Assembly (NCBI GenBank): GCA_030532905.1
Contig: JAUNKE010000020.1
Location: forward strand, 1-35,932
Length of the DNA stretch: 35,932 bases
Origin: Peptostreptococcaceae bacterium
GTDB taxonomy: Bacteria > Bacillota > Clostridia > Peptostreptococcales > Filifactoraceae
Direction: 5' to 3'
The notes beneath the pieces are model-generated. The model ran no database searches. It was not told the DNA's origin and saw nothing but the letters and a program-made list of their open reading frames with translations. Positions 5,744-34,729 of the stretch are shown piece after piece. Positions within the stretch are counted from its first letter, which is position 1. Every line of letters begins with the position of its first letter. The position numbers and the translations under genes are program-made.

Positions 5744-7317
5744 ATGAAGAAAAGATGGATAACAATATTGATTTTGTTAAGCACCCTTTCCAGTAGTCTT
5801 GTGGCATGGGGGAATGGATATGACAACAATTTCAAAGTACGAGTCGGAATTTTTTACGGCAGCAATGCAAAGCCGAGCTATACGATTGGCGGAACGCAAT
5901 TGTATGTGGCGGCGAACAATCAGGTGTTGATGCAGACATCGGCGAATCAGATGCAGGTCAGTCGGGCGAATATCTATTATTTTAATCAAAGTTCGAATTC
6001 CTATGAGGAAGCGAGCGCGCAAACCGGATTGGCTTATTATTCGAACGGAAGTTTTTATCCCGCTTCGACAAGTTCCGCGGCGGGCTTTACACCGACGGGG
6101 CAGGCGGATATTTTGATAACGGCGAACGACGGGCGTAATTTGGCATTGGTCGGAAGTGTCGACCAATTTATCGGCAGTACGGATGATGTTGTCAGCATCA
6201 ACGGAACGAGATATCGCGAAAAGGCGAATATCATCAACAACGGGCGCTCGCTTGTAGCGGTCAACATCGTCGGGCTCGACCATTATCTGATGGGCGTCGT
6301 GCCGAAGGAGATGTCGCCGTCTTGGAATATGGAAGCGCTGATGGCGCAGAGCATCGTGGCGCGAAACTATGTGGTCACGAATATGAACAAGCATCGCTCG
6401 GAAGGATTTAATATTTGTAACACCACGAGCTGTCAGGTTTACGGCGGAATGTCCGCGGAAACGCAGCGAACAAATGCGGCGGTGATGCAGACCTCCGGCA
6501 TGATGATGTACTACGGCGGCTACCTGGTCGAAGGCTATTTCCATTCGAGCAGCGGCGGTCGCACCGAGAGCAGTGCGAATGCATGGGGCGGATGGAAACC
6601 TTATCTGCTCGGTACGGATGACCCTTTTTCATTAGGCAGTCCGCATGATTTGTGGGTGGTGCAGATGAGCGGAGAAGAAATCAGACAACAACTTGCGAGA
6701 AGCGGCGTGAATGTCGGCGAAGTGACGGGAATTACGATTTCGAAGATATCGGAAAACGGTCGCGTACTCGAGATGGTCGTTCACGGCAGCGGCGGCTCGC
6801 ATACTATAAAGAAGGATAAAATAAGAAAAACATTAGGAAGTAATAAATTCAAGAGCACCTTTTTCACGATTGCCAATCCGGCGATTGTAGGGGGCGCGGT
6901 TCGACCGAAAACGGCGGACAAAAATGAATCGCAGACGCCGAATTTGAAAAAAGCGGAGCCGCTTGAAAAAGTATTCGGCAACTTGGGCATCGTGATTGAC
7001 AAACAGAGCGCGGGCAAAGAGCCTGCCAAAGCGCCGGAGAAAGTGGAGCAGAAAGAGCAACAACCGGCTTCGAATCCGAAACCGGTATTGCAACCGACAT
7101 CGCAACCGGTGCCGCCGACTGCACAGTATAAACCGCAGTATTTGCCGCAACCGATTATGCAAAACTTTACGGTGACGGGCAATCAGTTCGTTTTCTACGG
7201 CAGAGGTTACGGGCATGGCGTCGGCATGAGTCAATACGGAGCGAAATCCATGGGCGACCGCGGATATAATTTCCAATCGATTCTGCAATATTACTTCAAA
7301 GGTGTGACGATTGCAAG

Positions 7318-7321
<4 letters not shown>
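5744..7321 (+). CDS. SpoIID/LytB-domain exported protein
   Basis: This 525-residue protein has an N-terminal signal sequence ([23 protein letters not shown]). It contains the SpoIID/LytB domain ([37 protein letters not shown], the disulfide-like [11 protein letters not shown], and YHSSSGG-type [12 protein letters not shown]), ending with the family signature [17 protein letters not shown]. SpoIID is a peptidoglycan lytic transglycosylase acting with SpoIIP in endospore engulfment; LytB-type relatives act in vegetative wall turnover. About 85 residues of Lys/Pro/Gln-rich sequence (roughly 385-470) interrupt the domain just before the GRGYGHG signature, which is unusual. The gene sits between ruvB and queA, as in other Clostridia, and its stop overlaps the queA start. 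Confidence 0.9.
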
Positions 7322-9469
<2,148 letters not shown>

Positions 9470-11935: not shown

Positions 11936-12037
11936 ATGATGGTATTTTCTTTCAGCTTTTTTATCATTCCCGTCATAGTGATTTTGGCACTCGTCGTTGC
12001 TTGGGTGCTCAAAGGTCGAAACGAGGATGACGAATAG
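11936..12037 (+). CDS. Small single-helix membrane peptide A (33 aa)
   Basis: The ORF follows a GGAGG ribosome site (11926-11930) and reads MMVFSFSFFIIP, then a hydrophobic run VIVILALVVAWVLK, ending KGRNEDDE. It is a one-helix membrane peptide with a short charged tail, basic next to the membrane and acidic at the end. A second ATG directly follows the first. The stop codon TAG is embedded in the ribosome site of the next copy, so translation of A and B is probably coupled. It is a divergent paralogue of peptides B, C and E. No known family is recognised. Size and shape resemble type I toxin peptides or small regulatory subunits, but nothing shows which. Confidence 0.75.
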   Translation: MMVFSFSFFIIPVIVILALVVAWVLKGRNEDDE

Positions 12038-12180
12038 GAGGCTTTATGATTCTGCTTATAATGATTGCGCTTGTCGCTTTGATTGGGATATGGGTGCTCA
12101 AAGGTCGAAACGAGGATGACGAATAGGAGGCTTTATGATTCTGCTTATAATGATTGCGCTTGTCGCTTTGATTGGGATAT
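12003..12180 (+). repeat. Perfect 89-bp tandem duplication
   Basis: Positions 12003-12091 and 12092-12180 are identical over all 89 bases. Each unit spans the tail of one small ORF, its stop, the AGGAGG ribosome site and the body of the next ORF, so the duplication adds one complete translatable copy. Confidence 0.95.
12046..12126 (+). CDS. Small single-helix membrane peptide B (26 aa)
   Basis: This ORF has an AGGAGG ribosome site overlapping the stop codon of peptide A. The product is MILLIMIALVALIGIW followed by VLKGRNEDDE: an 18-residue hydrophobic helix and a charged tail. Comparison with peptide E shows the shared LVALI..WVLKG core encoded with different third bases in several codons (CTT/CTC, GTC/GTT, TTG/TTA, GTG/GTA, GGT/GGA). 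This is a sign that the amino acid sequence, not merely the DNA, has been kept. Confidence 0.78.
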   Translation: MILLIMIALVALIGIWVLKGRNEDDE

Positions 12181-17456: not shown

Positions 17457-17528
17457 CAATCTTAAATTTCCGAACTCTAAATTTAATCTAAAGGCAAGAT
17501 TTTCTTCTCAAACTTATTTTTAATAACT

Positions 17529-17573
17529 TGTAGGGAACGGTGACCCCACCGTTCCGCCGTTCCATCGGAACGG
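17529..17573 (+). repeat. Palindromic GGAACGG element, copy 1
   Basis: A 45-base element made of two adjacent hairpins (GGAACGGTG/CCACCGTTCC-like, then CCGTTCC-AT-CGGAACGG). Identical to 17819-17863. It resembles REP-type palindromic elements. Confidence 0.85.
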
Positions 17574-17608
17574 AAAAATGTAAAAGTTGATTCACGCAAT
17601 CAAAATTT

Positions 17609-17830
17609 CAATCTCCCTGCGGTCGTTGTATATCTCGTCAACCCATACATGGAATCCACTTGAAGTTTTTTGAATATGGAGACTTTGATTTTCACCTTGT
17701 AGGGAACGGTGGCAGTAGGTTACGGATACACAATCTCCCTGCGGTCGTTGTATATCTCGTCAACCCATGCATGGAACCACTTGAAATTTTTTGAATATGG
17801 AGACTTTGATTTCCACCTTGTAGGGAACGG
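17609..17830 (+). repeat. Tandem repeat of about 122-bp units
   Basis: The unit beginning CAATCTCCCTGCGGTCG starts at 17609 and again at 17731. Each contains CTCGTCAACCCAT, a GAATATGGAGACTTTGATT segment and ends in TGTAGGGAACGGTG, the start of the palindromic element. A third, inverted and partial copy is at 19397-19512, on the far side of the CRISPR array. Confidence 0.85.
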
Positions 17831-17863
17831 TGACCCCACCGTTCCGCCGTTCCATCGGAACGG
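17819..17863 (+). repeat. Palindromic GGAACGG element, copy 2
   Basis: Identical over 45 bases to the copy at 17529-17573. A truncated copy (17699-17711) lies between them. Confidence 0.85.
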
Positions 17864-17940
17864 AATTCAAATCCAAGTTGTAAATCCAAAACTCAGGAAT
17901 CAAAGTTTTATTCTTTATCAAAAATAAATTCCCGAAATTC

Positions 17941-18041: not shown

Positions 18042-18068
18042 TCTTGTGGTTTGTTTTTGTTTGAAAAG

Positions 18069-18763
18069 CAAAATATTCCTTAGAGGGAAGGTAAAACAAA
18101 GATCGGCTCCAAGCAGGCTAAGATCAATGGCGAAGTCGTGACATGTATCAATTCCTTAGAGGGAAGGTAAAACGATGCTCCTCCAAACAGCGATGAAGTC
18201 GCGCCGCCGTCAAATCCAAACGGTATCAATTCCTTAGAGGGAAGGTAAAACTTAGAAAGGAGGGGAATTACATGAGAAAAAGTAATTCTTGTATCAATTC
18301 CTTAGAGGGAAGGTAAAACGTAGGGAAATACAGGGTGGAAACCACCCACAATGACCACCAATATGTATCAATTCCTTAGAGGGAAGGTAAAACGAGCTGG
18401 TAACAGCGGAGCAAACCTCTTCACAATCCCCGCAAGAGGACAGTATCAATTCCTTAGAGGGAAGGTAAAACTTCCGGATGCTTTCGGACTGTATCGGCTA
18501 GCTCAGGTCGATACTATGTATCAATTCCTTAGAGGGAAGGTAAAACTGAGTAATCGTAAGTTGCGTGACAATATTGCTACGAAAAAGTATCAATTCCTTA
18601 GAGGGAAGGTAAAACTTTGAGGAGAATTTTGCAGGTATAGTCAAAGACCTGCTAACGTATCAATTCCTTAGAGGGAAGGTAAAACTTGATAAGCCTGGAA
18701 AAGATCTGGTGGCAATTGCTAAGGAGTTTTCAAAGTATCAATTCCTTAGAGGGAAGGTAAAAC
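18069..18763 (-). CRISPR. CRISPR array, 10 repeats and 9 spacers, no cas genes in window
   Basis: Ten repeats of 29 bases start at 18069, 18145, 18223, 18291, 18365, 18443, 18518, 18587, 18657 and 18735. Nine are identical; the one at 18069 is degenerate at its outer end, as expected for the leader-distal repeat. In the minus-strand reading the repeat begins GTTTTACCTTCC and ends AAGGAATTGATAC, like repeats of type I-B and some type III systems of Clostridia, leaving an ATTGATAC 5' handle. Spacers are 47, 49, 39, 45, 49, 46, 40, 41 and 49 bases, mean 45, which is longer and more variable than usual for type I-B (about 34-38). A promoter to the right (18800-18828) supports leftward transcription. 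No cas gene, complete or broken, was seen within the window. Confidence 0.97.
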
Positions 18764-18828
18764 AACCGAAGTTATCAGCTGTTGAGAAATTACATATTTA
18801 TTCTATCACAGATTTATGGACTTTTCAA
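18764..18828 (-). promoter_or_regulatory. CRISPR leader with promoter
   Basis: On the minus strand, TTGAAA (18828-18823) and TAGAAT (18805-18800) are separated by exactly 17 bases, with TG one base before the -10. Transcription would begin about 30 bases before the leader-proximal repeat. The stretch is AT-rich, as leaders usually are. Confidence 0.68.
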
Positions 18829-19025: not shown

Positions 19026-19871
19026 TGGTTTTTTGCGCGGGTTTTGGGATGCAAATACAATTCACAAATTGCAATCCATCAGGTAAATTCGAAAGTTGGA
19101 TGAAGAATTGTATTCCCGAATCGTAAATCGCAAATTGCAATCCATAAATGAAACGGTAATTAAAAATCACATCTTAGAAATATAAATCCAAAATTTAATG
19201 CCAATCAAAGTACGAATCCAAAATTGCAAATAAAATCTCCATCGCGATTTCAAATTATAAAATTAAAATCGCAAGTTCTTATTCTTGTTTTCCTGTTCGT
19301 CATTCTTTTGTTTCGACAAACGTTGTTTGTCGCGGAACGGTGGGGTTACGAACCTAACCAAATTTTTGAGCTTGGCGAAAAAAATTTCCGGTAGGTTCCA
19401 TGCATGGGTTGACGAGTTAACGGTAAAAATAAATTTCCGTTCCGTTGGAACGGCGGAACGAAGAGGTCTTCGTTCCCTACAACGTGGTAAGCAAAGTCTC
19501 CGTATTCAAGACAAGAATAAAAAACAAAACAAAAACGAAAATCATAAATCGTAAATCATAATCAAATTTTCATCTGCAACTTCGAAATCCACTTCCAATG
19601 CCGATTCAAAATATAATTTTCAAATCCCGATTTTGAAACTCATCCGGATAGGAGGCGAGAAGTTTGTTTTTGGAAATCAGAAAGTAAATCCCAAATTTAT
19701 TCATCAATCTCCATCGCAACTTTTAAATCGAAAATCCATTTTGCAATCTCCATTCCAATCTAAAAACCAAACTAAATTTCAATGCCAAAATAATTTTTCT
19801 CACTAAACTATTGATATCACGAAACTTTTTGTTGAGACTCAATTTTAACGCAAAATAAATTCTTTTTTCCC
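19026..19871. other. AT-rich repeat-derived intergenic region
   Basis: No gene is supported here. The sequence is full of degenerate short motifs (AAATTGCAATCCAT at about 19066 and 19133; AAATCGTAAATC-like runs) and includes inverted relatives of the repeats found left of the CRISPR array (19397-19512). Open frames of 60-90 codons exist but have no ribosome site or recognisable protein. Confidence 0.6.
19437..19482 (-). repeat. Palindromic GGAACGG element, inverted copy
   Basis: Read on the minus strand this is TGTAGGGAACG, a variable middle, then CGTTCCGCCGTTCC and CGGAACGG. It is the same architecture as 17529-17573 but with a different first-hairpin loop. It is adjacent to inverted relatives of the 122-bp unit. 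Confidence 0.75.
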
Positions 19872-22800: not shown

Positions 22801-25800
22801 ATGGTAAAAAAGTTTAAACGCGTATTAGTCGCAAACCGCGGAGAAATTGCAATTCGGATTTTCAGAGCTTGCAAAGAACTGGGCATTCGCTCCGTTGCGA
22901 TTTATTCGGAAGAAGATAAGACGGCTCTCTTTCGCACGAAGGCGGACGAATCCTATTTGATTGGAAAGAACAAAAGTCCTCTGCAAGCTTATTTGAATAT
23001 GGATGAAATTATCAGGCTCGCCGTCAAGAAGGGCGTCGATGCAATTCATCCCGGCTACGGATTTCTTGCGGAGAATGCTGAGTTCTCCAAACGCTGCGAG
23101 GAGGCGGGCATCACATTTATCGGGCCGGACGAAAGAATGATTGGCATGCTCGGTGACAAAATTCAATCCAAATTGGTTGCGCAGGAAGTCGATGTTCCGA
23201 CGATTCCGGGTGTAGATAAAGCGATTCGAAATGACAAGGAGGCCGTCGAGTTTGCAAAAAAGGCGGGCTATCCGCTCATCATCAAAGCGTCCGCGGGCGG
23301 CGGCGGTCGCGGTATGCGAATCGTTCATTGTGAAGAAGAATTGCTGGAGTCCTATCACAGCGCCAGCTCGGAGGCGGGCAACGCATTCGGGATAGAGGAT
23401 GTTTTTATAGAAAAATACTTGGAAAAGCCCAAGCATATCGAAGTGCAAATTCTGGGTGATAAATACGGAAATATTGTTCATCTCTTTGAGAGAGATTGCT
23501 CGATTCAAAGACGACATCAGAAATTGATTGAGTTTACGCCGGCATTTGCCGTCAGCGAAGAAAAGCGAAACGAGATTTGCCAAGATGCGATAAAAATTGC
23601 AAAAAGAGTCGGATACAGCAATGCGGGAACGGTGGAATTTCTGCTCGATAAGAATGAGAATCATTATTTTATCGAAATGAATCCGCGCATCCAAGTCGAG
23701 CATACGGTGACCGAGATGGTAACGGGCATCGACATCGTGCAGAGTCAGATTCTGATTGCGCAGGGATACGCGCTCGATTCCAAAGAAATCGGCATCAAAT
23801 CTCAAGCGGATATTTCGTCGAGAGGATTTGCGATTCAATGCCGCGTTACGACCGAAGACCCGACCAATTCCTTCGCTCCGGATACCGGGCGATTGGATGT
23901 CTATCGCAGCGGCTCGGGTTTCGGCATTCGGCTTGACGGCGGCAATGCGTTCACCGGCTCGGTGATTTCGCCCTATTATGACAGTTTGCTCGTGAAAATT
24001 ACATCGCATTCGAGAACTTTTGAAGATGCGATTCAAAAATCGCTCCGCTCGCTCAAAGAGATGGCGATTTCCGGAGTGAAAACCAATATCGGCTTTTTAA
24101 TCAATGTGCTCAGTAGCGAGGATTTTGCGCGCGGAGTTTGCGACACGCATTTTATCACCGACAATCCGTCGCTGTTCGACATTCGCCCGAAAAATGACAG
24201 AGAGCTGAAAATGCTGAAATATCTCGGCAATATTATCGTATCGGAAACCGGCGGGAAAAAACCGGACTTTGACATCCCGATTGTGCCAAAAGTCGTGCGT
24301 GCGAAAAATCAGGAAGGCAGTCGGAAAATTTTGTTGGAACGGGGAGTTGAGGGGCTGATAGACTGGATTCATCAGCAGAAAAAGCTGCTCATCACCGACA
24401 CGACGATGCGGGACGCTCATCAGTCGTTGATGGCGACGCGTGTGCGAACCAAAGATATGCTCAAGATTGCCAAAGCGACTTCGGTCTATGGGCAGGATTT
24501 GTTTTCTTTGGAGATGTGGGGCGGCGCAACCTTTGATGTGGCGTATCGTTTTTTGCATGAGTCGCCTTGGAAAAGATTGGAGGATTTGCGCAGAAAGATT
24601 CCGAACATCCTTTTTCAAATGCTGATTCGAGGAAGCAATGCCGTCGGCTACAAAAATTATCCGGACAATGTGAATCGAGAATTTATCAAAGCATCTGCGG
24701 AAAGCGGAATCGACATATTTCGGATTTTCGATTCGCTCAACTGGATGGAAGGAATGTTGCCGGCGATTGAGGAAGTGCGCAATCAGGATAAGATTGCCGA
24801 AGCCTGCATTTGCTACACGGGCGACATTTTGGATGAGCGCAGAGACAAATACAATCTGAAATACTATGTCGATATGGCGAAGGAGATTGAAAAAGCCGGC
24901 TCGCATATTTTGGGAATAAAGGATATGTCCGGTCTGCTCAAGCCTTATGCCGCGGGCAAATTGATTCGTGCGCTCAAAGATGAAATTTCCATTCCGATTC
25001 ATCTGCACACGCACGACACTTCCGGCAACGGAGTCGCAACGATTTTGATGGCGGCGGAGGCAGGAGTCGATATTGTCGATACCGCGCTCAATTCGATGTC
25101 CGGTTTGACGAGTCAGCCGGCGCTCAATTCCGTCGTGGCGGCGCTCGAAAATACCGAGCGGGCAACCGGATTGGATTTGGACAAAATGGAAGAATTGTCG
25201 AGATATTGGTCGGCGGTTCGTCCGGTCTATGCGAAATTTGAATCTGATTTGAAATCCGGCACCACCGAAGTCTATAAATATGAAATTCCGGGCGGGCAAT
25301 ATTCCAATTTGCGTCCGCAGGTAGAAAGTTTCGGTTTGGGGCATCGCTTTGAAGAGGTCAAAGAGATGTTCAAAAATGTCAACTACATGGTTGGCGACAT
25401 CGTCAAGGTGACCCCTTCTTCAAAAATGGTGGGCGACTTTGCAATTTTCATGGTGCAAAACGATTTGACACCCGAAAATATTTTAGAAAAAGGGCAAAAT
25501 CTGACTTATCCCGATTCTGTCGTCGATTATTTCAAAGGGATGATGGGGCAACCGATGGGCGGTTTTCCGAAAGATATTCAGAAAATGGTGCTCAAAGATG
25601 AAGAGCCGATTACCGTGCGTCCCGGATTGTTGCTCGAGGATTTTGATTTTGAATCGGCGATAAAGATGCTGGAGCGCGAATACAAAATCCAAGCCGATAT
25701 GAAGGATGCGCTCGCGTATGCTTTATATGGAAAGGTGTTTGAAGATTATCTCAAGCATTATCAGGAGTTCGGGGACTTGACGCAGATGGGGAGCGATGTG

Positions 25801-26235
25801 TTTTTTCATGGGCTTGCGGAAGGCGAGATTGCCGAAATAGAAGTCAAGGAAGGAAAAACTCTCGTCACCAAATTGCTTGAAATCGGCAAGGTGGATAAAG
25901 AGGGATACAAAACTTTGGCTTTTGAGGTCAACGGCAACCGTCGCGAAATAAAAATTTTCGATTCGAAAACCGCCGTTCAGAAACCGGCGGAGTATATACC
26001 GATGGCGGATGCTTCCAACGAAAACGAAATCGGCGCGGTGATTCCGGGTATGGTTTCCAAAATTCTGGTCAAAAAAGGCGAGCGCGTCGAAGCCAACCAA
26101 AATCTAATCGTCATCGAGGCGATGAAAATGGAAACCAATATCATGGCAAAAAAATCGGGCATCATTCAGGAAATTGCAGTCGAGGAAAAACAATCGGTAA
26201 AAACCGGGCAACTGCTGATTGTGATGGACGAGTGA
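22801..26235 (+). CDS. pyc: Pyruvate carboxylase
   Basis: This single-chain biotin enzyme carboxylates pyruvate to oxaloacetate, replenishing the TCA branch and feeding gluconeogenesis. The 1144-residue protein has the full order. Biotin carboxylase comes first (FKRVLVANRGEIAIRIFRAC; the ATP-grasp glycine loop KASAGGGGRGMR; EMNPRIQVEHTVTE). The carboxyltransferase barrel follows (LLITDTTMRDAHQSLMATR, with PIHLHTHDTSGNG). The C-terminal biotinyl domain ends with VIEAMKMETN, placing the biotinylated lysine at Lys1109. Length is normal (about 1140-1150). An AAAGGAG ribosome site precedes ATG. It is a single-gene unit. Confidence 0.98.
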   Translation: MVKKFKRVLVANRGEIAIRIFRACKELGIRSVAIYSEEDKTALFRTKADESYLIGKNKSPLQAYLNMDEIIRLAVKKGVDAIHPGYGFLAENAEFSKRCEEAGITFIGPDERMIGMLGDKIQSKLVAQEVDVPTIPGVDKAIRNDKEAVEFAKKAGYPLIIKASAGGGGRGMRIVHCEEELLESYHSASSEAGNAFGIEDVFIEKYLEKPKHIEVQILGDKYGNIVHLFERDCSIQRRHQKLIEFTPAFAVSEEKRNEICQDAIKIAKRVGYSNAGTVEFLLDKNENHYFIEMNPRIQVEHTVTEMVTGIDIVQSQILIAQGYALDSKEIGIKSQADISSRGFAIQCRVTTEDPTNSFAPDTGRLDVYRSGSGFGIRLDGGNAFTGSVISPYYDSLLVKITSHSRTFEDAIQKSLRSLKEMAISGVKTNIGFLINVLSSEDFARGVCDTHFITDNPSLFDIRPKNDRELKMLKYLGNIIVSETGGKKPDFDIPIVPKVVRAKNQEGSRKILLERGVEGLIDWIHQQKKLLITDTTMRDAHQSLMATRVRTKDMLKIAKATSVYGQDLFSLEMWGGATFDVAYRFLHESPWKRLEDLRRKIPNILFQMLIRGSNAVGYKNYPDNVNREFIKASAESGIDIFRIFDSLNWMEGMLPAIEEVRNQDKIAEACICYTGDILDERRDKYNLKYYVDMAKEIEKAGSHILGIKDMSGLLKPYAAGKLIRALKDEISIPIHLHTHDTSGNGVATILMAAEAGVDIVDTALNSMSGLTSQPALNSVVAALENTERATGLDLDKMEELSRYWSAVRPVYAKFESDLKSGTTEVYKYEIPGGQYSNLRPQVESFGLGHRFEEVKEMFKNVNYMVGDIVKVTPSSKMVGDFAIFMVQNDLTPENILEKGQNLTYPDSVVDYFKGMMGQPMGGFPKDIQKMVLKDEEPITVRPGLLLEDFDFESAIKMLEREYKIQADMKDALAYALYGKVFEDYLKHYQEFGDLTQMGSDVFFHGLAEGEIAEIEVKEGKTLVTKLLEIGKVDKEGYKTLAFEVNGNRREIKIFDSKTAVQKPAEYIPMADASNENEIGAVIPGMVSKILVKKGERVEANQNLIVIEAMKMETNIMAKKSGIIQEIAVEEKQSVKTGQLLIVMDE

Positions 26236-26363: not shown

Positions 26364-26433
26364 TATAAAGACGACTTCTTCTTCATTGAGCGATGAGGAA
26401 TTATAGGGGTCGTCTTTTGTTTGGCAAATTTTT
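26364..26433 (+). repeat. 70-bp direct repeat / terminator, left copy
   Basis: The copy contains AAAGACGAC...GTCGTCTTT as an outer stem and a TTCTTCATT/GATGAGGAA inner stem with GU pairs, then a T-rich tail, so it is probably the terminator of the pyruvate carboxylase gene 130 bases upstream. It matches 29930-29999 at 68 of 70 positions, the two differences lying in the loop. The rest of 26236-26538 holds only the helicase promoter region. Confidence 0.85.
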
Positions 26434-26492
26434 GGTGTCCGTTTTAACAATTCTCATTGATGAAATCGGTTTTCAAAAATGCGGTGAAATGA

Positions 26493-26498
26493 TATAAT
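26493..26498 (+). promoter_or_regulatory. -10 element upstream of the helicase gene
   Basis: TATAAT lies 40 bases before the helicase start. A TTTTCA at 26470-26475 is 17 bases upstream, a mediocre -35. Confidence 0.45.
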
Positions 26499-26538
26499 TT
26501 TATTTAGAACATTGATAAGTATAGATTAGGAGAATGTC

Positions 26539-29500
26539 GTGAGTTTTTTCTCGAACTTATTTAAAGGAAAGCGAAAAGAAGATATCGCACCAAATCAAAG
26601 TCTGCCTTATGAGGTGGAGATTTTATTTGAAATTGACCGTTCTATAAAAGAATTGCTGAATAAAAATGAATATATTGCGCAAAGTGATTATTTCGAAGCA
26701 GCTGAAAAGTTCGCAAGCATTAAAAAACACTTTGAAGTTATGTTAGGAAATGATTTGTTTCGTGAGTATTGTCAAAAAAACTCGCTTGAGTTCACCAAGA
26801 CATTGGCAATGTATAATCGCCTAAATGAACTTGGGGATTTGATTGAGGAATGCAATGAAAATTATCTTGCGAGAGAAAAGAAAAATCAAAAGGATTATTT
26901 GGATAATATTCTTAAAGAAGTCGACCCCGCTATTGTGCTGGATGAAAATCAGCGTGATGTAGTTTTGACAGATGAAGATTATTGTTTGGTTATCGCGGGA
27001 GCCGGAGCGGGAAAAACCACAACGGTGGCGGCGAAGGTAAAATACTTGGTCGAGAAGAAAGGGATTGATCCAAGCCAAATTTTAGTTATTTCTTTTACCA
27101 ACAAAGCCGTCAACGAGTTAAAAGACAAAATAAACAAGGATTTGTCCATCGGCTGTCCGATTACGACTTTCCATTCGGCAGGGAATGCAATTATAAGGAA
27201 GAAATCGGATGACGAATTTCGGGTTGTCAATTCATCGACATTATACTATGTGCTTATGAATTATTTTAAGACCACATTATTGAATGATAAGCGGATGTTA
27301 AATGATATTATCATGTTCTTCGGCTCTTATTTTGATGCGCCTTTTGAAGGAGATGATTTGAATCGCTTTTTTGATTTGGTTGCCAACAAACGATTCGAAA
27401 CCATTCGAAGTGATTTGGGTGACTTTGTTGATGAGGTTCAGGATAAAAAAACCAAGAGACTGGTTACTATTTCCAATGAAATTTTGCGATCTCGCGAAGA
27501 AGTGGAGATTGCAAACTTTCTCTATTTGCATAATATCGAATACCATTATGAGCCGGCTTATCCTTATCGCATAGATAATTTTAAAAGAATATATACACCG
27601 GATTTTGTTATCAAACAGGATGATAAAGTTGCATATATTGAGCATTTCGGCATCACCGAAGATGGGAAAAACACTTTATATGATGAAGAAACTTTAGAGC
27701 GCTACAAAAAAGCAATCAATGACAAGGTTCTGATTCATAGAAAATACGGAACAAAGCTGATTTATACTTTTTCATCATATAAAGATGGTCGCACATTGAT
27801 GGAGCATCTTCGTGATGAACTTGTCAAAAACGGTTTTGAACTTAATGCGAGACCGCAGAGAGAAATTGTTGAAAAACTTGTTACTTCCGAGCAATCCCGA
27901 TATGTCAGTAAATTGATTAGATTAGTCAGCGGATTCATTTCGAACTTTAAAACCAATGCATTCGGATTGGATGACTTTTCGAGAATGAGCCATTCTACAA
28001 ATAATGTACGAACAAAACTCTTTTTGGATATTTGCAAGGGATGTTATTTGGAGTATCAACGCTATTTGAATGAGCAGCATTTAATCGATTTCGACGATAT
28101 GATCAATGAGTCGGCGCGTATTTTGCGCGAAGTCAAAGACATGAAAACGAAATTGGATTTTAAATATATCATTGTCGATGAGTATCAGGATATTTCAAAA
28201 CAGCGTTTTGACTTAACCAAGGAATTGTCCGAGATTACCGATGCAAAAATTATCGCGGTGGGCGACGATTGGCAATCCATCTATGCTTTTAGCGGTTCGG
28301 ATATCACCTTGTTTACTCATTTCGTTGAAATAATGGGATATGGAAAATTGCTTCGGATTGTGAATACTTATCGGAACGCACAGGAAGTGATTGACATTGC
28401 CGGGAATTTTATTCAAAAAAATCCGGGGCAAATTCACAAGCGATTGAAATCGCCTAAGAACATCAAGGATCCGGTCATCATCTATACCTATGATTCAACA
28501 CGAAAAAAAGCAACCGATTTTACACGAAGCGGAGCCAATTATGCGCTGGCAAAAGCAGTTGAAACTGCAATTGAGCAAATTTTGATTTATGATGAAAAGG
28601 AGAGAGGCGGGAAAAGTTCGCATATTTTGCTGCTTGGAAGATTCGGTTTTGACGGGGATCATTTGGAAAAATCCGGTTTGTTTGAGTATCAAAAACGAGG
28701 TGGGCGTGTTCGATCGGTAAAATATCCGAGAGTGGAAATGACATTTATGACGGCACATTCGTCAAAAGGCTTGGGTTATGACAATGTTATTGTAATCAAT
28801 GGAAAAAACGAAACTTACGGTTTTCCATCAAAAATTGAAGATGATCCGGTGCTTAATTTTGTCATCAAGAGAGATACCGGAATTGAATATGCGGAAGAGA
28901 GAAGATTGTTCTATGTGGCAATGACTCGAACAAAAAATCGAGTGTTTTTTATTGCTCCCGAAAAAAATCCGTCGGAATTTCTTTTAGAAATCAAAAAGGA
29001 TTACAAAACTGTCAGATTGTATGGTGATTGGCAGGAAGTATATGAGCGAATCGACCGAAAATATTGTCCGATTTGCGGCTTTCCTCTTCAATTGCGGTAT
29101 AAAAAAGCCTATGGGCTCAAATTGCATCTTTGTACGAATGAGCCGGAGCTGTGCGGTTTTATTACGAATGATTTGCGTGGAAGAAAAATGTCGATTCAAA
29201 AGTGTAATTGTTGTACCGATGGCTACATGGTTGTAAAATGTGTAGGGAATGGAGAAGCTTTCTTAGGTTGCACCAACTACAAAAAGGAAGGAAATGGATG
29301 CAACAATATGATTTCGATGGCGAACTGCTATCTGATGAATGGGTTGGGTAAGTTGGAAAGCCATACGCAAGAGGACGCTCAACGGCATGAAAATAAGATT
29401 TTAAACGAGAAAATGGAATATCAGGCAGCGGAATCACCAATCATATATCGAGCGGAAAAAATGCAGGATTATACAAAAGAACAGAAAAACACCTTGGAGC

Positions 29501-29928
29501 AACATTCAAAACCCATCCCGCGAAAAGCTGCTCTAAAGGAAATTTATTATAATTCCAACAGTCTAATCGATATCATTGGTGACATTTTGCAATGTGTAAA
29601 AGAAATCAGCGAAAAGAATTATTTCGGTATCACAATAGCGATTAGCGTATTGCGTGGCTCACAAAACGAGAAGGTTCGAAAAAATTCGTTGGATAAAACA
29701 ACGGTTTACGGAAAACGAGCCCAGATGAGTTATGATGATTTGAGAATTATTACCAAATGGTTGATTGAGAAAAAATATCTGTTGCAAACGAGAGGGCACT
29801 ACCCTGTTTTGCATCTCACTCATGAAGGGAATTACTACAAAGAGATAATAACTACACAACAGTTGAAAGCGTTGTTGAATATCTTGGAAAAAAGCAAAAA
29901 CGGAGAATCTCTTTTAGAAATTGAATAG
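26539..29928 (+). CDS. UvrD-like SF1 helicase with nuclease-like insert, zinc fingers and RQC-type C-terminus
   Basis: This is an 1129-residue superfamily 1A DNA helicase related to helicase IV/UvrD. Walker A is AGAGAGKTTT (Lys159), motif Ia is ISFTNKAVNEL, Walker B is IIVDEYQD (Asp547/Glu548), then VGDDWQSIYAFSG and the late motif MTAHSSKGLGYDNVIV with FYVAMTRTK. Residues about 318-375 form a nuclease-like insert: EEVEIANFL, then YTPDF near 352-356 and YIEHFGI, a PD-(D/E)XK-like pattern in which the usual Lys is Phe. Residues 842-930 carry Cys4 topoisomerase-type zinc fingers (CPICGFPLQL, CNCCTDGYM). Residues 1007-1100 resemble the RecQ RQC winged helix (IAISVLRGSQNEKVRK, then YPVLHLTHEGNYY). 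The start is GTG with an AGGAGA ribosome site; the ATG five bases earlier meets a stop at once. The gene looks AT-richer than its neighbours and lies between direct repeats, hinting at transfer. A role in DNA repair or defence is inference. Confidence 0.9.
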   Translation: MSFFSNLFKGKRKEDIAPNQSLPYEVEILFEIDRSIKELLNKNEYIAQSDYFEAAEKFASIKKHFEVMLGNDLFREYCQKNSLEFTKTLAMYNRLNELGDLIEECNENYLAREKKNQKDYLDNILKEVDPAIVLDENQRDVVLTDEDYCLVIAGAGAGKTTTVAAKVKYLVEKKGIDPSQILVISFTNKAVNELKDKINKDLSIGCPITTFHSAGNAIIRKKSDDEFRVVNSSTLYYVLMNYFKTTLLNDKRMLNDIIMFFGSYFDAPFEGDDLNRFFDLVANKRFETIRSDLGDFVDEVQDKKTKRLVTISNEILRSREEVEIANFLYLHNIEYHYEPAYPYRIDNFKRIYTPDFVIKQDDKVAYIEHFGITEDGKNTLYDEETLERYKKAINDKVLIHRKYGTKLIYTFSSYKDGRTLMEHLRDELVKNGFELNARPQREIVEKLVTSEQSRYVSKLIRLVSGFISNFKTNAFGLDDFSRMSHSTNNVRTKLFLDICKGCYLEYQRYLNEQHLIDFDDMINESARILREVKDMKTKLDFKYIIVDEYQDISKQRFDLTKELSEITDAKIIAVGDDWQSIYAFSGSDITLFTHFVEIMGYGKLLRIVNTYRNAQEVIDIAGNFIQKNPGQIHKRLKSPKNIKDPVIIYTYDSTRKKATDFTRSGANYALAKAVETAIEQILIYDEKERGGKSSHILLLGRFGFDGDHLEKSGLFEYQKRGGRVRSVKYPRVEMTFMTAHSSKGLGYDNVIVINGKNETYGFPSKIEDDPVLNFVIKRDTGIEYAEERRLFYVAMTRTKNRVFFIAPEKNPSEFLLEIKKDYKTVRLYGDWQEVYERIDRKYCPICGFPLQLRYKKAYGLKLHLCTNEPELCGFITNDLRGRKMSIQKCNCCTDGYMVVKCVGNGEAFLGCTNYKKEGNGCNNMISMANCYLMNGLGKLESHTQEDAQRHENKILNEKMEYQAAESPIIYRAEKMQDYTKEQKNTLEQHSKPIPRKAALKEIYYNSNSLIDIIGDILQCVKEISEKNYFGITIAISVLRGSQNEKVRKNSLDKTTVYGKRAQMSYDDLRIITKWLIEKKYLLQTRGHYPVLHLTHEGNYYKEIITTQQLKALLNILEKSKNGESLLEIE

Positions 29929-29929
29929 T

Positions 29930-29999
29930 TATAAAGACGACTTCTTCTTCATTAACCGATGAGGAATTATAGGGGTCGTCTTTTGTTTGGCAAATTTTT
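29930..29999 (+). repeat. 70-bp direct repeat / terminator, right copy
   Basis: Begins two bases after the helicase stop and matches 26364-26433 at 68 of 70 positions. Acts as the likely terminator of the helicase gene. Confidence 0.85.
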
Positions 30000-30312
30000 T
30001 TGATATAATGGTATAAAGATGCATAATGCAAAACCAAATTTACGAAAGCTATATGAATAGGAAAAAACGCAAAACAAAAATTCAAAATTGAATTTATAAA
30101 CTATATTAGGAAGAATGCAGAGTTGAAATTCGAAATAAATACCGCAACTTAATAAATCGTAGAGAAAACAATGATTGTTCCGTTTCGATGGAACGGTGGA
30201 ACGGTTATTCAAAGAATATTGATAACTATTTTCAAACAGTTATAGAATAAGGTCAAAGGTATTGCCGCGAACAGCGTCATTTGGACGGCTGTTTAATGAG
30301 AAAGGTTTGAAT
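30000..30312 (+). other. Intergenic region before the ABC importer
   Basis: A TATAAT at 30004-30009 follows directly after the terminator repeat and could be a promoter. A partial GGAACGG palindrome relative lies at 30177-30205. The sequence is otherwise AT-rich, with no supported gene. Confidence 0.5.
30177..30205 (+). repeat. Partial GGAACGG palindromic element
   Basis: GTTCCGTTTCGATGGAACGG followed by TGGAACGG matches the second hairpin of the elements at 17529 and 19437, 10 kb away from the main cluster. Confidence 0.6.
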
Positions 30313-31854
30313 ATGTTAAAAGAAATTATTATCCTATTTACCACAAATTCGGGATTCTTCATCGGGCTGCTGAGGGAGCATATTTTTGTATCCTTCGTTT
30401 CGATTATCATCGCGACGGTGCTTGGTGTAGGAATCGGAATTTGGATTAGTGAGCGTCCGAAACTGGCGAATATTGTTTTGAGCGTGGTCAATGTGTTATA
30501 CACGATACCGGCGATTGCGTTGTTCGGATTTTTAATCAGTTTGACGGGAATCGGAAACACGACCGCCATCGTGGCGTTGACGATTTATGCGCTTTTGCCG
30601 ATGGTTCGCAGTACCTATACGGGAATTCATACGATTGACCCTTTGATTGTTGAGGCGGCGGAAGGAATGGGAAGTACGAAGTCGCAAATTTTATTCAAAA
30701 TCAAATTGCCTTTGGCTTTGCCGGTGCTGATGTCGGGGCTTCGAAATATGGTGACGATGACGATCGCTTTGGCGGGTATTGCATCTTTCGTCGGAGCGGG
30801 CGGTCTGGGCGTTTCGATTTACCGCGGAATTACAACCAACAACAAGGCGTTGACGATTGCGGGCAGTTTACTCATCGCGTTGATGGCACTTTTTTGCGAC
30901 TATGTGCTCGGTTGGATGGAAAAGCGTGTGAGCAAAAAGAAGCGAGCGGACAAGCTGATTGTCGCGGTGTTGCTCATTATTTTGGTAACACCTTTGCTCA
31001 TGAGCGGGATTTTCCGATGGATGCCGCATTCAAAAACGGTAAAATTGGCGACCAAACCGATTACGGAAAGCTATATTTTGGGCGAAATCATCGCACAGCT
31101 CATCGAAGAAAAAACGGATATAGATGTCAAGGTGACGCATGGCATCGGGGGTGGAACTTCCAATATCCATCCGGCGATGATTCGTGGCGATTTTGACATG
31201 TATCCGGAATATACGGGAACGATTTGGCAAATCGTTTTGAAGAAGAACGAGCCTTATGACGAAAGCAAATTCCCGATTTTGCAAGAAGAATATGAGCGGG
31301 AGCATCAACTGCTTTGGGCGAATCTGTTCGGATTCAACGACACCTATTCGTTGGCGGTTCGTCGGGAGGTTGCGGAAGAATATAATCTCAAAACTTTTAC
31401 GGATTTGAAGCGAGTGGCGGACAAATTGATTTTCGGCGCGGAATATGATTTTTACGAGCGGGAAGACGGATTTTCCGCATTGGTTTCGACCTACGGCTTG
31501 ACTTTCAAACAGCAGATTGACATGGACAACGGCTTGAAGTATCAGGCGATGAAGGATAAAAAAATCGATGTGATGACGATATTTACAACGGACGGTCAGC
31601 TTTCGACATCGGACTTGGTCGTGCTTGAGGACGATTTGCATCTGTATCCGTCATATCTGGCGGGAACGGTCGTGCGCAGCGAGGTGCTGACGACGCATCC
31701 GGAGCTTAGTGATGTGCTCGCTCAGCTCAATGATGTTTTGGACGATACGGAAATGTCGCGTCTGAACAATGAAGTCGAAACGGGCGGCAGAACGCCGGAG
31801 GAAGTTGCGAAGGAATTTTTAGGACAAAAAGGATTGTTGGAGGTGGGCGAATGA
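30313..31854 (+). CDS. ABC importer permease fused to substrate-binding domain (betaine/choline/ergothioneine type)
   Basis: A 513-residue fusion. Residues 1-215 are an OpuB/ProW-type permease with about six transmembrane helices and the EAA loop (VEAAEGMGSTKSQILFKIKLPLALP). Residues about 235-513 form an extracellular OpuAC/ProX-type receptor (ITESYILGEIIAQLIEEKTDIDVKVTHGIGGGTSNIHPAMIRGDFDMYPEYTGT with a PEYTG motif). Fused permease-receptors of this length occur in Gram-positive importers for glycine betaine, choline, carnitine, and in the EgtU ergothioneine importer. The ligand cannot be chosen from sequence alone. ATG 30313 follows an AAAGGT site and begins the membrane part; a TTG start at 30262 is possible but less likely. 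It overlaps the ATPase gene by four bases. Confidence 0.93.
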   Translation: MLKEIIILFTTNSGFFIGLLREHIFVSFVSIIIATVLGVGIGIWISERPKLANIVLSVVNVLYTIPAIALFGFLISLTGIGNTTAIVALTIYALLPMVRSTYTGIHTIDPLIVEAAEGMGSTKSQILFKIKLPLALPVLMSGLRNMVTMTIALAGIASFVGAGGLGVSIYRGITTNNKALTIAGSLLIALMALFCDYVLGWMEKRVSKKKRADKLIVAVLLIILVTPLLMSGIFRWMPHSKTVKLATKPITESYILGEIIAQLIEEKTDIDVKVTHGIGGGTSNIHPAMIRGDFDMYPEYTGTIWQIVLKKNEPYDESKFPILQEEYEREHQLLWANLFGFNDTYSLAVRREVAEEYNLKTFTDLKRVADKLIFGAEYDFYEREDGFSALVSTYGLTFKQQIDMDNGLKYQAMKDKKIDVMTIFTTDGQLSTSDLVVLEDDLHLYPSYLAGTVVRSEVLTTHPELSDVLAQLNDVLDDTEMSRLNNEVETGGRTPEEVAKEFLGQKGLLEVGE

Positions 31855-32573
31855 TTGAGTTCAAAAATGTGAGCAAGAGCTACAACAATCGGGCAATCAT
31901 CGAGAATTTGAATTTGGTGGTCGATTGCGGAAGCTTTTTGACGATTATCGGAACTTCCGGCTCGGGCAAAACCACGATTATGAAAATGATAAACGGCTTG
32001 GTCAAGGCGGATGAAGGCGAAATTCTCATCAACGGAAAAAATATTGAGAATGAGGATTTGATTGAGCTGCGAAGAAATACGGGTTATGCGATTCAGGGAA
32101 ATATTTTGTTTCCGCATCTGACGGTTTATGAGAATATCGGTTATGTGCTCAATCTGATGAAGAAAGATAAAGCGCAGATTCGTCAAATTGTCGAAGATAA
32201 ATTGAAGATGCTCGATTTGCCGCTTGAAATTATGGAGCGCTATCCGCATGAGCTTTCGGGCGGTCAGCAGCAGCGTGTGGGAATCGCGCGCGCACTTTCG
32301 GCAACGCCGGATATTTTGCTGATGGACGAGCCTTTCGGAGCGGTCGATGCGATTACGCGAAATCAATTGCAAAACGAGCTTAAAGAATTGCATCGAAAGA
32401 CGGGTATTACCATCGTATTCATCACGCATGATATCGTGGAGGCGCTCAAGCTCGGAACGGAAGTGCTTGTGATTGATGAAGGGGTCATTCAGCAGCATGC
32501 GACACCGGATGTGATAAAGAATCAGCCGGCGAATGCTTTTGTCAAAAAACTGATTGAGCTGGCGATGGTGTAA
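31851..32573 (+). CDS. ABC importer ATP-binding subunit
   Basis: This 240-residue ATPase partners the permease-receptor upstream, sharing an ATGA overlap. Walker A is GTSGSGKTT (Lys40), the signature is LSGGQQQR (135-142), Walker B is ILLMDEPFGAVD (Asp159/Glu160), and the switch His is in IVFITHDIVEA. It lacks the C-terminal CBS pair seen in osmoregulated OpuA/OpuC ATPases (about 380-410 residues). This suggests the importer is not osmotically gated and favours an EgtV/short OpuB-like type. Confidence 0.96.
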   Translation: MIEFKNVSKSYNNRAIIENLNLVVDCGSFLTIIGTSGSGKTTIMKMINGLVKADEGEILINGKNIENEDLIELRRNTGYAIQGNILFPHLTVYENIGYVLNLMKKDKAQIRQIVEDKLKMLDLPLEIMERYPHELSGGQQQRVGIARALSATPDILLMDEPFGAVDAITRNQLQNELKELHRKTGITIVFITHDIVEALKLGTEVLVIDEGVIQQHATPDVIKNQPANAFVKKLIELAMV

Positions 32574-32611: not shown

Positions 32612-33676
32612 ATGGAGAAGGAACTGTATTTTACAGCGGGTAAATCAAAAATTGTTTGGGGAGTGTTTCAACGGTTGGTGAGATACTTTGTGCTGTTTTT
32701 TTTAGGATCGTCGTTCGTGCTTGTGGCGTACATGATTTTGATGGCTTTACTTTTTGATGACAAAAACGTATCCGGTTTTTCTTGTGTAGTTTGCATACTG
32801 TTCGTGTTTTTTGTGCTTGCTTTACCGGTGGTTGTCGGTAGGGGGATATATCGGTATTGCAAGGCTTTTGTCTCGCTAAACGGTCAAAAGCTTTCCATTC
32901 GTACACCGCAAGGCAAATATTATGAGCTGGATATTGTAGAAGATAATTTGTACCAAAGCATTGCGTTGAAAAGAGATACTTTTTATACAACCTCAAGCCG
33001 GGTTTATGCAATATGCTTTCACGTAGATGAAAAATTGGTCAGCATTCCGCTGGATTGGTTGAATCAAAAAGAACGTCATGAAATCTTTTATGCGATTAGA
33101 ACAATGAATAATTCTTGGGTAAAGGCTTTGGGGGTAAGTTTTCCTGTGAAATATCAGGTGCTGAAGAAAAAAATTATCACACAATTTCGTGTGATAAGCC
33201 TGTTTGAACTGTTGGGCAGAATAATTGTTTGCTTCTTCATTGTAATGGCGATCTCTTCTGTTTTATGCACGAATGGCGTTGACGGGAATCTTGTCAATCT
33301 GATTATTGGCGTTCTTTGGGTCATTGCATTTTTAAAACCTGTGCTATCCATGATTGTGCTCCCTAAAATTCGAAATCGGATACCGACAAATTTTGAAATG
33401 AATGAGCGAGGCTTTTGTTTTGATGAACGGGAAATTTTGTATGAAGAGATGACCCTTGTTTCGATTTGTTGCTTAGAAAACCGTTCGGATTGTTATTCTA
33501 TCGTCATTTCAACTCCTGAACAGGAGCGTTCGTATATAATCGGAACGAATCAAATTTTTGTGGAGACGATTTGTAACGAGAACTATTATCCGGACGTACC
33601 ATATCGAGAAATTCACATATCTCATATCTGCGAATGGTATCTTCAAAAAAATAATGTTCATTATTATATTATGTAG
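32612..33676 (+). CDS. Membrane protein with two PH-like segments (paralogue 1)
   Basis: No named family is recognised with certainty. The 354-residue protein has two transmembrane helices (about 22-45 and 55-77), a cytosolic beta-rich segment (YCKAFVSLNGQKLSIRTPQG, then YYELDIVEDNLYQS, and VSIPLDWLNQKE), two more helices (about 199-220 and 226-248), and a second beta-rich segment (FEMNERGFCFDEREILYEEM). The order of two helices then a beta domain, twice, resembles bacterial PH-like proteins (YcxB/DUF304 type). It is a tandem paralogue of the next gene, with many identical stretches (KSKIV, IRTP.G, PLDWL). It starts 38 bases after the ATPase gene with no terminator between, so it may be co-transcribed. 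Function unknown. Confidence 0.8.
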   Translation: MEKELYFTAGKSKIVWGVFQRLVRYFVLFFLGSSFVLVAYMILMALLFDDKNVSGFSCVVCILFVFFVLALPVVVGRGIYRYCKAFVSLNGQKLSIRTPQGKYYELDIVEDNLYQSIALKRDTFYTTSSRVYAICFHVDEKLVSIPLDWLNQKERHEIFYAIRTMNNSWVKALGVSFPVKYQVLKKKIITQFRVISLFELLGRIIVCFFIVMAISSVLCTNGVDGNLVNLIIGVLWVIAFLKPVLSMIVLPKIRNRIPTNFEMNERGFCFDEREILYEEMTLVSICCLENRSDCYSIVISTPEQERSYIIGTNQIFVETICNENYYPDVPYREIHISHICEWYLQKNNVHYYIM

Positions 33677-33724: not shown

Positions 33725-34729
33725 ATGGAGAATGCATTGAATTTCAGGGCGGATAAATCAAAAATTGTTAGGATAATTTTTGGTGCATTGGTACCTAGAT
33801 TATTTTTGTTTTTTACAGCAGGAACGATAGGATTTGACATACTGACGAAATTTAATTACTCTTTGGCAAAAATATTCGCGACAATTGTATTTGTAATATG
33901 CATTTTATATATGCTCGGTAAAATAAGTGGACTGCGAAAGGCAAAGGTTTATATTTACGACAATCGAATTTTTATTCGAACACCGATTGGGGAGAGTTAC
34001 GATTTGGATGTGATTGAAAATGATTTACACCAAGAATGGATTCCAATAGGATGGAGATTCTGGCAAAGAAGGAGAGTTTATCAGTACGGGCTTAGCTTTC
34101 AAATGGATGGAAAAGAAGTGAAAGTTCCGTTGGACTGGTTGAAGGATGAACATCGACAACAGATATTTTCGCAGATTGCATACTTGCATAATGAGGCAAG
34201 TGGAGATTTTGAACTTCATTTCCCAATCGAATTTGAAGTGTTGAAAGAAGAAATTGCAGATACTATTTGTTTTAATATCATTATTAATTTGATTTTACTT
34301 GGATTTTTCGGTGGACTTTTGTCGTTGTTTATTCGGGGCGGACTCGTAAACTTTCCGGCGATTGTTCGAAATTCCGTATCCTTTGCCGGCTTTGCTTATT
34401 TAACTTTTGAGCCGTTTATGGATATTCTCTCTTTTCGTAAAGTTAAAAGTAGGATACCGTCTCGAGTTGAAATCAATGAGATGGGAATTTGTTTTGACGA
34501 CGAAGAAATTCTATATGAAGACATGTTAAGTGTTACGATAAACGGTAGGGAAAAAGATTCGTTCTATTCTTTAAAGATTTCGACTGAAACGAAAGATTAT
34601 CAATATCCGTTGGGGATAGGCGAAATATTTCTCTTGGAGTCGGTTTCCAATGAAAATGAAAACAGTTCCTTCTTGAAGATATTCAAGCAAGTGATTCTCG
34701 AAAACGGTGTGGAGTATTATAAGATGTAG
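33725..34729 (+). CDS. Membrane protein with two PH-like segments (paralogue 2)
   Basis: A 334-residue paralogue of the preceding protein with the same layout: two helices (about 18-60), a first beta segment (IFIRTPIGESYDLDVIENDL and VKVPLDWLKDEHR), two helices (about 185-230), and a second beta segment (VEINEMGICFDDEEILYEDM). The stretch around the stop of each copy is also duplicated (TAGGG-TGG-GAAAT-ACTTTTTAA), showing a whole-unit tandem duplication. A GGGGAAGG ribosome site precedes ATG. Function unknown. Confidence 0.8.
   Translation: MENALNFRADKSKIVRIIFGALVPRLFLFFTAGTIGFDILTKFNYSLAKIFATIVFVICILYMLGKISGLRKAKVYIYDNRIFIRTPIGESYDLDVIENDLHQEWIPIGWRFWQRRRVYQYGLSFQMDGKEVKVPLDWLKDEHRQQIFSQIAYLHNEASGDFELHFPIEFEVLKEEIADTICFNIIINLILLGFFGGLLSLFIRGGLVNFPAIVRNSVSFAGFAYLTFEPFMDILSFRKVKSRIPSRVEINEMGICFDDEEILYEDMLSVTINGREKDSFYSLKISTETKDYQYPLGIGEIFLLESVSNENENSSFLKIFKQVILENGVEYYKM

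Follow-up and report, generated by a model that had tools for sequence, protein, structure and literature searches.

A stand-alone UvrD-type helicase gene of a Peptostreptococcaceae bacterium is bracketed by two near-identical 70-nt direct repeats, both of which form the same stable hairpin and the downstream of which starts 1 nt past the helicase stop codon (Table 1). The arrangement, situated in a stretch of 35,932 nucleotides (the window) between a pyruvate carboxylase gene (pyc) and the importer genes opuBC and opuA, is probably the product of a local rearrangement in which the helicase's own terminator was duplicated upstream, with both copies insulating the gene.

Table 1. Features of the helicase locus and its neighbors (positions in the window)
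Feature	Position	Strand	Remarks and basis
pyc	22801-26235		Left neighbor; stop 128 nt ahead of copy 1
Upstream 70-nt copy (copy 1)	26364-26433	+	Terminator-like hairpin and T-rich tail; repeat search, fold
Predicted helicase promoter/leader (105 nt)	26434-26538	+	Consensus match only
SF1 UvrD-type helicase, stand-alone, 1129 aa, C-terminal RQC domain	26539-29928	+	ORF, Pfam
Downstream 70-nt copy (copy 2)	29930-29999	+	One base after the helicase; repeat search, fold
Truncated member of a palindromic family of dispersed repeats	30130-30240	+	Matches elsewhere in own genome; outside the bracket
opuBC/opuA importer genes	30262-32573		Pfam

A repeat search of the window recovered the two copies at a spacing of 3566 nt, identical at 68 of 70 positions (97%), with longest shared identical runs of 24 and 43 nt. 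Gapped alignment of their flanks returned the same 70 nt (E 6e-31) and no similarity beyond them on either side; this BLAST E-value excludes a chance origin of the pair. A single hairpin structure with a bulge, of −23.4 kcal/mol, is formed by both copies (z scores of −5.2 and −4.8; none of 200 shuffles was as good), and a T-rich tail follows it. The near-identity of the repeats and their common hairpin and T-tail, reported in a preliminary description of this DNA, are thereby borne out. The two mismatches between the copies (GAGC/AACC) both lie inside the 4-nt hairpin loop, for which the chance is 0.0025 if two substitutions fall at random; this hints that the stem has been maintained in both copies, although only two events are involved.

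The stem carries a 5-nt bulge and ends in TCTTTTG, and a longer T run follows ∼15 nt past the stem. Neither copy was listed by a simple consensus terminator scan, because a stem with such a bulge falls outside the rules of the scan and only a short T run directly adjoins it. Starting 1 nt after the stop codon, the downstream copy is placed as the helicase's own intrinsic terminator would be, and, judged from sequence and fold, both hairpins are predicted to have termination activity. A promoter-like site (TTTTCA-17-TATAAT, preceded by TG; 10/12 with the TG extension, a consensus match only) occupies positions 26470-26498, and a similar promoter, TTTTCAAAAA...TATAATTT, precedes the helicase gene of another genome of the same genus (G001). 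The terminator of the G001 gene differs and is not matched by a copy ahead of it, so that the bracket is specific to the lineage of the window.

The 70-mer occurs exactly twice in its own genome (a draft of 132 contigs, 96% complete). No copy was found in 39 relatives or in ∼390 genomes of the class, and ∼390 genomes of the order yielded only weak partial matches of 23-35 nt in two of them, taken as chance; phage, plasmid, and IMG/VR records gave nothing convincing (IMG/VR was searched by one exact 20-mer). Since it is present only as one pair, the 70-mer is neither a common genomic terminator nor a dispersed element or mobile repeat family; a dispersed mobile repeat (MITE/REP), which requires multiple genomic copies, was rejected. 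The truncated repeat in the 262 nt between copy 2 and opuBC belongs to a palindromic mosaic family with the core TTCCGTTCCGATGGAACGGCGGAACGG and alternative tails, copies of which also lie at 17527-17870 and 19379-19509; this family has 58 matches in the same genome, 12 in G001, and 7 in a further genome of the family (G002), and none in eight family genomes of other genera. Elsewhere in the window we noted a CRISPR-like array at 18050-18790 (∼10 repeats of GTATCAATTCCTTAGAGGGAAGGTAAAAC, spacing 68-78 nt) and a perfect 89-bp tandem duplication at 12002-12179, with further partial copies to ∼12296.

The helicase contains UvrD-helicase (Pfam, 1.1e-46) and RQC (6.7e-15) domains, and the PDB sequences nearest to it are of UvrD/PcrA types. 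Its best NCBIfam match is helicase IV (NF008276), an identity that we did not adopt because the score reaches about half of the curated cut-off (279.2 versus 543 bits). A sub-threshold match to RF03531, a C. difficile sRNA located inside a helicase gene (35.6 versus 65.2 bits), was observed at 28863-28963, where it overlaps conserved helicase coding sequence. The gene is patchily distributed: full-length relatives occur in two of 11 family genomes, where the remaining matches are short ones to general UvrD/PcrA-type helicases. Of 297 genomes of the order, 12 have such a relative at E ≤ 1e-60, and further relatives occur in Clostridia, Bacteroidales, Spirochaetes, and others. Phyla are largely clustered in the helicase tree, in which the window and G001 genes are sisters (99% SH-aLRT). 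These two share 59% identity, and OpuBC and OpuA of the two genomes 58-64%; ordinary genus divergence was dropped as the explanation for the helicase value, since other gene pairs reach 68-89%. The helicase genes of the window and G001 may reflect vertical descent or separate acquisition.

The G001 helicase lies in a different neighborhood from that of the window, and helicase neighbors vary between loci in general, a RecQ-domain helicase being nearby in some. A conserved protein of 177-204 aa is encoded near the helicase in 12 examined loci (L051:9321-9908 and 11 others); it had no Pfam match in the three cases tested and no convincing match in the helicase locus of the window or of G001. Among the 10 other family genomes, pyc was found in eight, all of which lack a full-length helicase; the two that gave no pyc match, G001 and G002, are incomplete. 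The opuBC gene has unrelated neighbors in G001, G002, and a third relative (G005), and pyc-opuBC adjacency was absent from the family relatives checked (one genome per species). Judged from these relatives, the pyc-helicase-importer junction is specific to the window genome, and because they lack the pyc-importer adjacency no empty site or swapped cargo is visible among them.

The base composition of the helicase gene (GC 0.373, GC3 0.386) differs from that of pyc (0.474/0.555), opuBC (0.471/0.571), and opuA (0.454/0.556), in agreement with the preliminary description, which had called it AT-richer than these genes. Low GC is not limited to the bracketed segment, since two genes at 32612-33676 and 33725-34729 are likewise AT-rich (GC3 0.39 and 0.36); their products are alike at their starts and had no Pfam or NCBIfam match. 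Across the helicase family, the gene is also AT-richer than its flanks at 59 of 72 loci, with a mean GC difference of −6 points (Wilcoxon p 5e-10); because the trait is family-wide, we no longer took a low GC content to prove that the insertion was recent. AT-richness fits a gene moving between genomes, or an intrinsic bias, and gives no insertion date here.

We analyzed the 1-kb flanks of ∼85 other helicase loci for direct repeats, and the 70-mer bracket was found at none of them. A long direct repeat on both sides was seen only at L054 (32 nt) and L082 (a 30-nt palindrome); both repeats are palindromic and unrelated in sequence to the 70-mer. At L054 the identical hairpin repeat GAAAGACAGGGGACGGTTCTCTGTCTTGTTCA at 5758-5789 and 9380-9411 brackets a helicase match (6001-9318) in which an in-frame stop cuts the called ORF short. 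The upstream GAAAGACAGGGGACGGTTCTCTGTCTTGTTCA copy at this locus lies shortly past the end of an apparent tRNA gene. As background, 400 random brackets of 3.4 kb were drawn from 40 stretches (∼0.47 Mb) of the window's own genome; two scored at least 25 (26 and 44), versus 64 for the 70-mer bracket, and both fall in a contig that carries duplicated coding sequence (L188). Brackets of 3.4 kb drawn at random from the GTDB loci likewise gave two of 400 at this threshold, one being L054. Given two of 400 in each background set, two of ∼85 helicase loci is no clear enrichment.

In the explanation that we favor, the 70-mer would be the Rho-independent terminator of the helicase gene, and a promoter-helicase-terminator unit would once have been duplicated or relocated, possibly by a tandem duplication that later lost one of its two helicase genes or by template switching at the hairpin, to leave the order terminator-promoter-helicase-terminator. 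Copy 1 probably stops pyc transcription, and copy 2 that of the helicase ahead of the importer operon; as a side effect, the helicase may rarely be deleted through recombination between the repeats. The repeat is about as long as one terminator, and the placement of both substitutions in the tetraloop fits two copies that were both kept as hairpins. Counting against duplication, no remnant of a second helicase is visible upstream of copy 1, and no intermediate state of the bracket was found in relatives. As there is no clear separate terminator between pyc and copy 1, copying may have run either way: the upstream copy could be the original terminator of pyc, from which the downstream copy would then have arisen.

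The preliminary description had proposed instead that the helicase is a mobile cargo, inserted, lost, or swapped without a recombinase by homologous recombination between terminators that act as homology arms. Mobility of the gene as such retains weak support from its patchy occurrence, its other neighborhood in G001, its AT-richness relative to the flanks at most loci, and the rarity of the 70-mer, which is not a common terminator. The part that found no support is the role of the terminators as its vehicle: the 70-mer occurs at no other helicase locus, only two unrelated palindromic brackets were seen among the ∼85 loci, and G001 has a terminator of its own and lacks an upstream copy. We therefore regard such an exchange as unlikely at this locus. 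Direct arms of 97% identity around one AT-rich, patchily distributed gene speak for it, but they are seen at a single locus, no third or empty copy of the 70-mer was found anywhere searched, and identical runs of 24 and 43 nt are short for efficient recombination. Open-licence papers yielded no description of terminator-bracketed gene exchange. That near-identical intrinsic terminators serve more generally as portable homology arms, through which operon boundaries acquire, lose, or swap single genes with no dedicated recombinase, is highly unlikely; if true, terminators as exchange points would allow single genes to be transferred at such boundaries in a simple way that needs no recombinase. 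The present value of the data lies in one documented candidate locus and a patchy helicase family whose genes mostly have a lower GC content than the DNA around them.

Direct repeats that flank a single gene also recall known islands next to tmRNA or tRNA genes, and the 70-mers might be attL/attR-like sites that bound a small site-specific element, non-autonomous and mobilized in trans. We consider this quite improbable, as the segment carries no recombinase gene and no empty att site was found elsewhere in the genome; two general tyrosine-recombinase-like matches in the genome do make action in trans possible. Two related readings were rejected. The genome (96% complete) has no integron integrase above the cut-off (best 53.7 versus 265 bits), and the attC core motifs RYYYAAC/GTTRRRY are absent from both strands of both copies, which argues against an integron cassette; an IS200/IS605-type element is disfavored by the lack of any match to the Y1 transposase family (PF01797) in the genome. 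Retention of the two 70-mers for other regulation, through antisense RNA from a minus-strand promoter or through hairpins that act as substrates of the RQC domain, would draw on a sigma-70-like minus-strand match in each copy (TTGCCA-16-TATAAT, 11/12; 26427-26400 and 29993-29966), which points back to pyc from copy 1 and into the helicase 3′ end from copy 2. These are consensus matches only, however, promoter-like matches across the region are close in number to those expected from shuffles (28 versus 22.2), and the 70-mer matched no Rfam family, making this reading very improbable. An assembly artefact that joined or duplicated a terminator is hardly credible: the genome is a draft in 132 contigs, but the copies differ at two sites, their unique flanks differ, the identical runs do not exceed 43 nt, and complete ORFs lie on both sides.

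The bracketed gene resembles known systems in several respects. Like an integron cassette, it consists of one gene followed by an imperfect-hairpin site, with a similar site on its other side, but it differs in the absence of attC core motifs from the 70-mers and of an integrase above the cut-off from the genome. The helicase gene is also far larger than the usual integron cassettes. Known islands with direct repeats at their ends insert beside tmRNA or tRNA genes (14-bp repeats in PMC12595487), and the tmRNA islands of that paper carry an integrase. The locus shares with such tmRNA islands the direct repeats around foreign-looking DNA (PMC12595487), whereas the helicase segment has no integrase, its repeat is a predicted terminator rather than a tRNA or tmRNA end, and no empty site was found. 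With E. coli DNA helicase IV and UvrD-type SF1 enzymes the protein has the helicase core domains in common, helicase IV being its best NCBIfam match; unlike helicase IV, it scores below the family cut-off and has a C-terminal RQC domain. Compared with Rho-independent terminators, the 70-mers are unusual in bracketing one gene as a near-identical pair, in the 5-nt bulge of the stem, and in the distance of ∼15 nt to the T run; they resemble such terminators in their stable hairpin, their T-rich tail, and the position of the downstream copy immediately behind the helicase stop codon.
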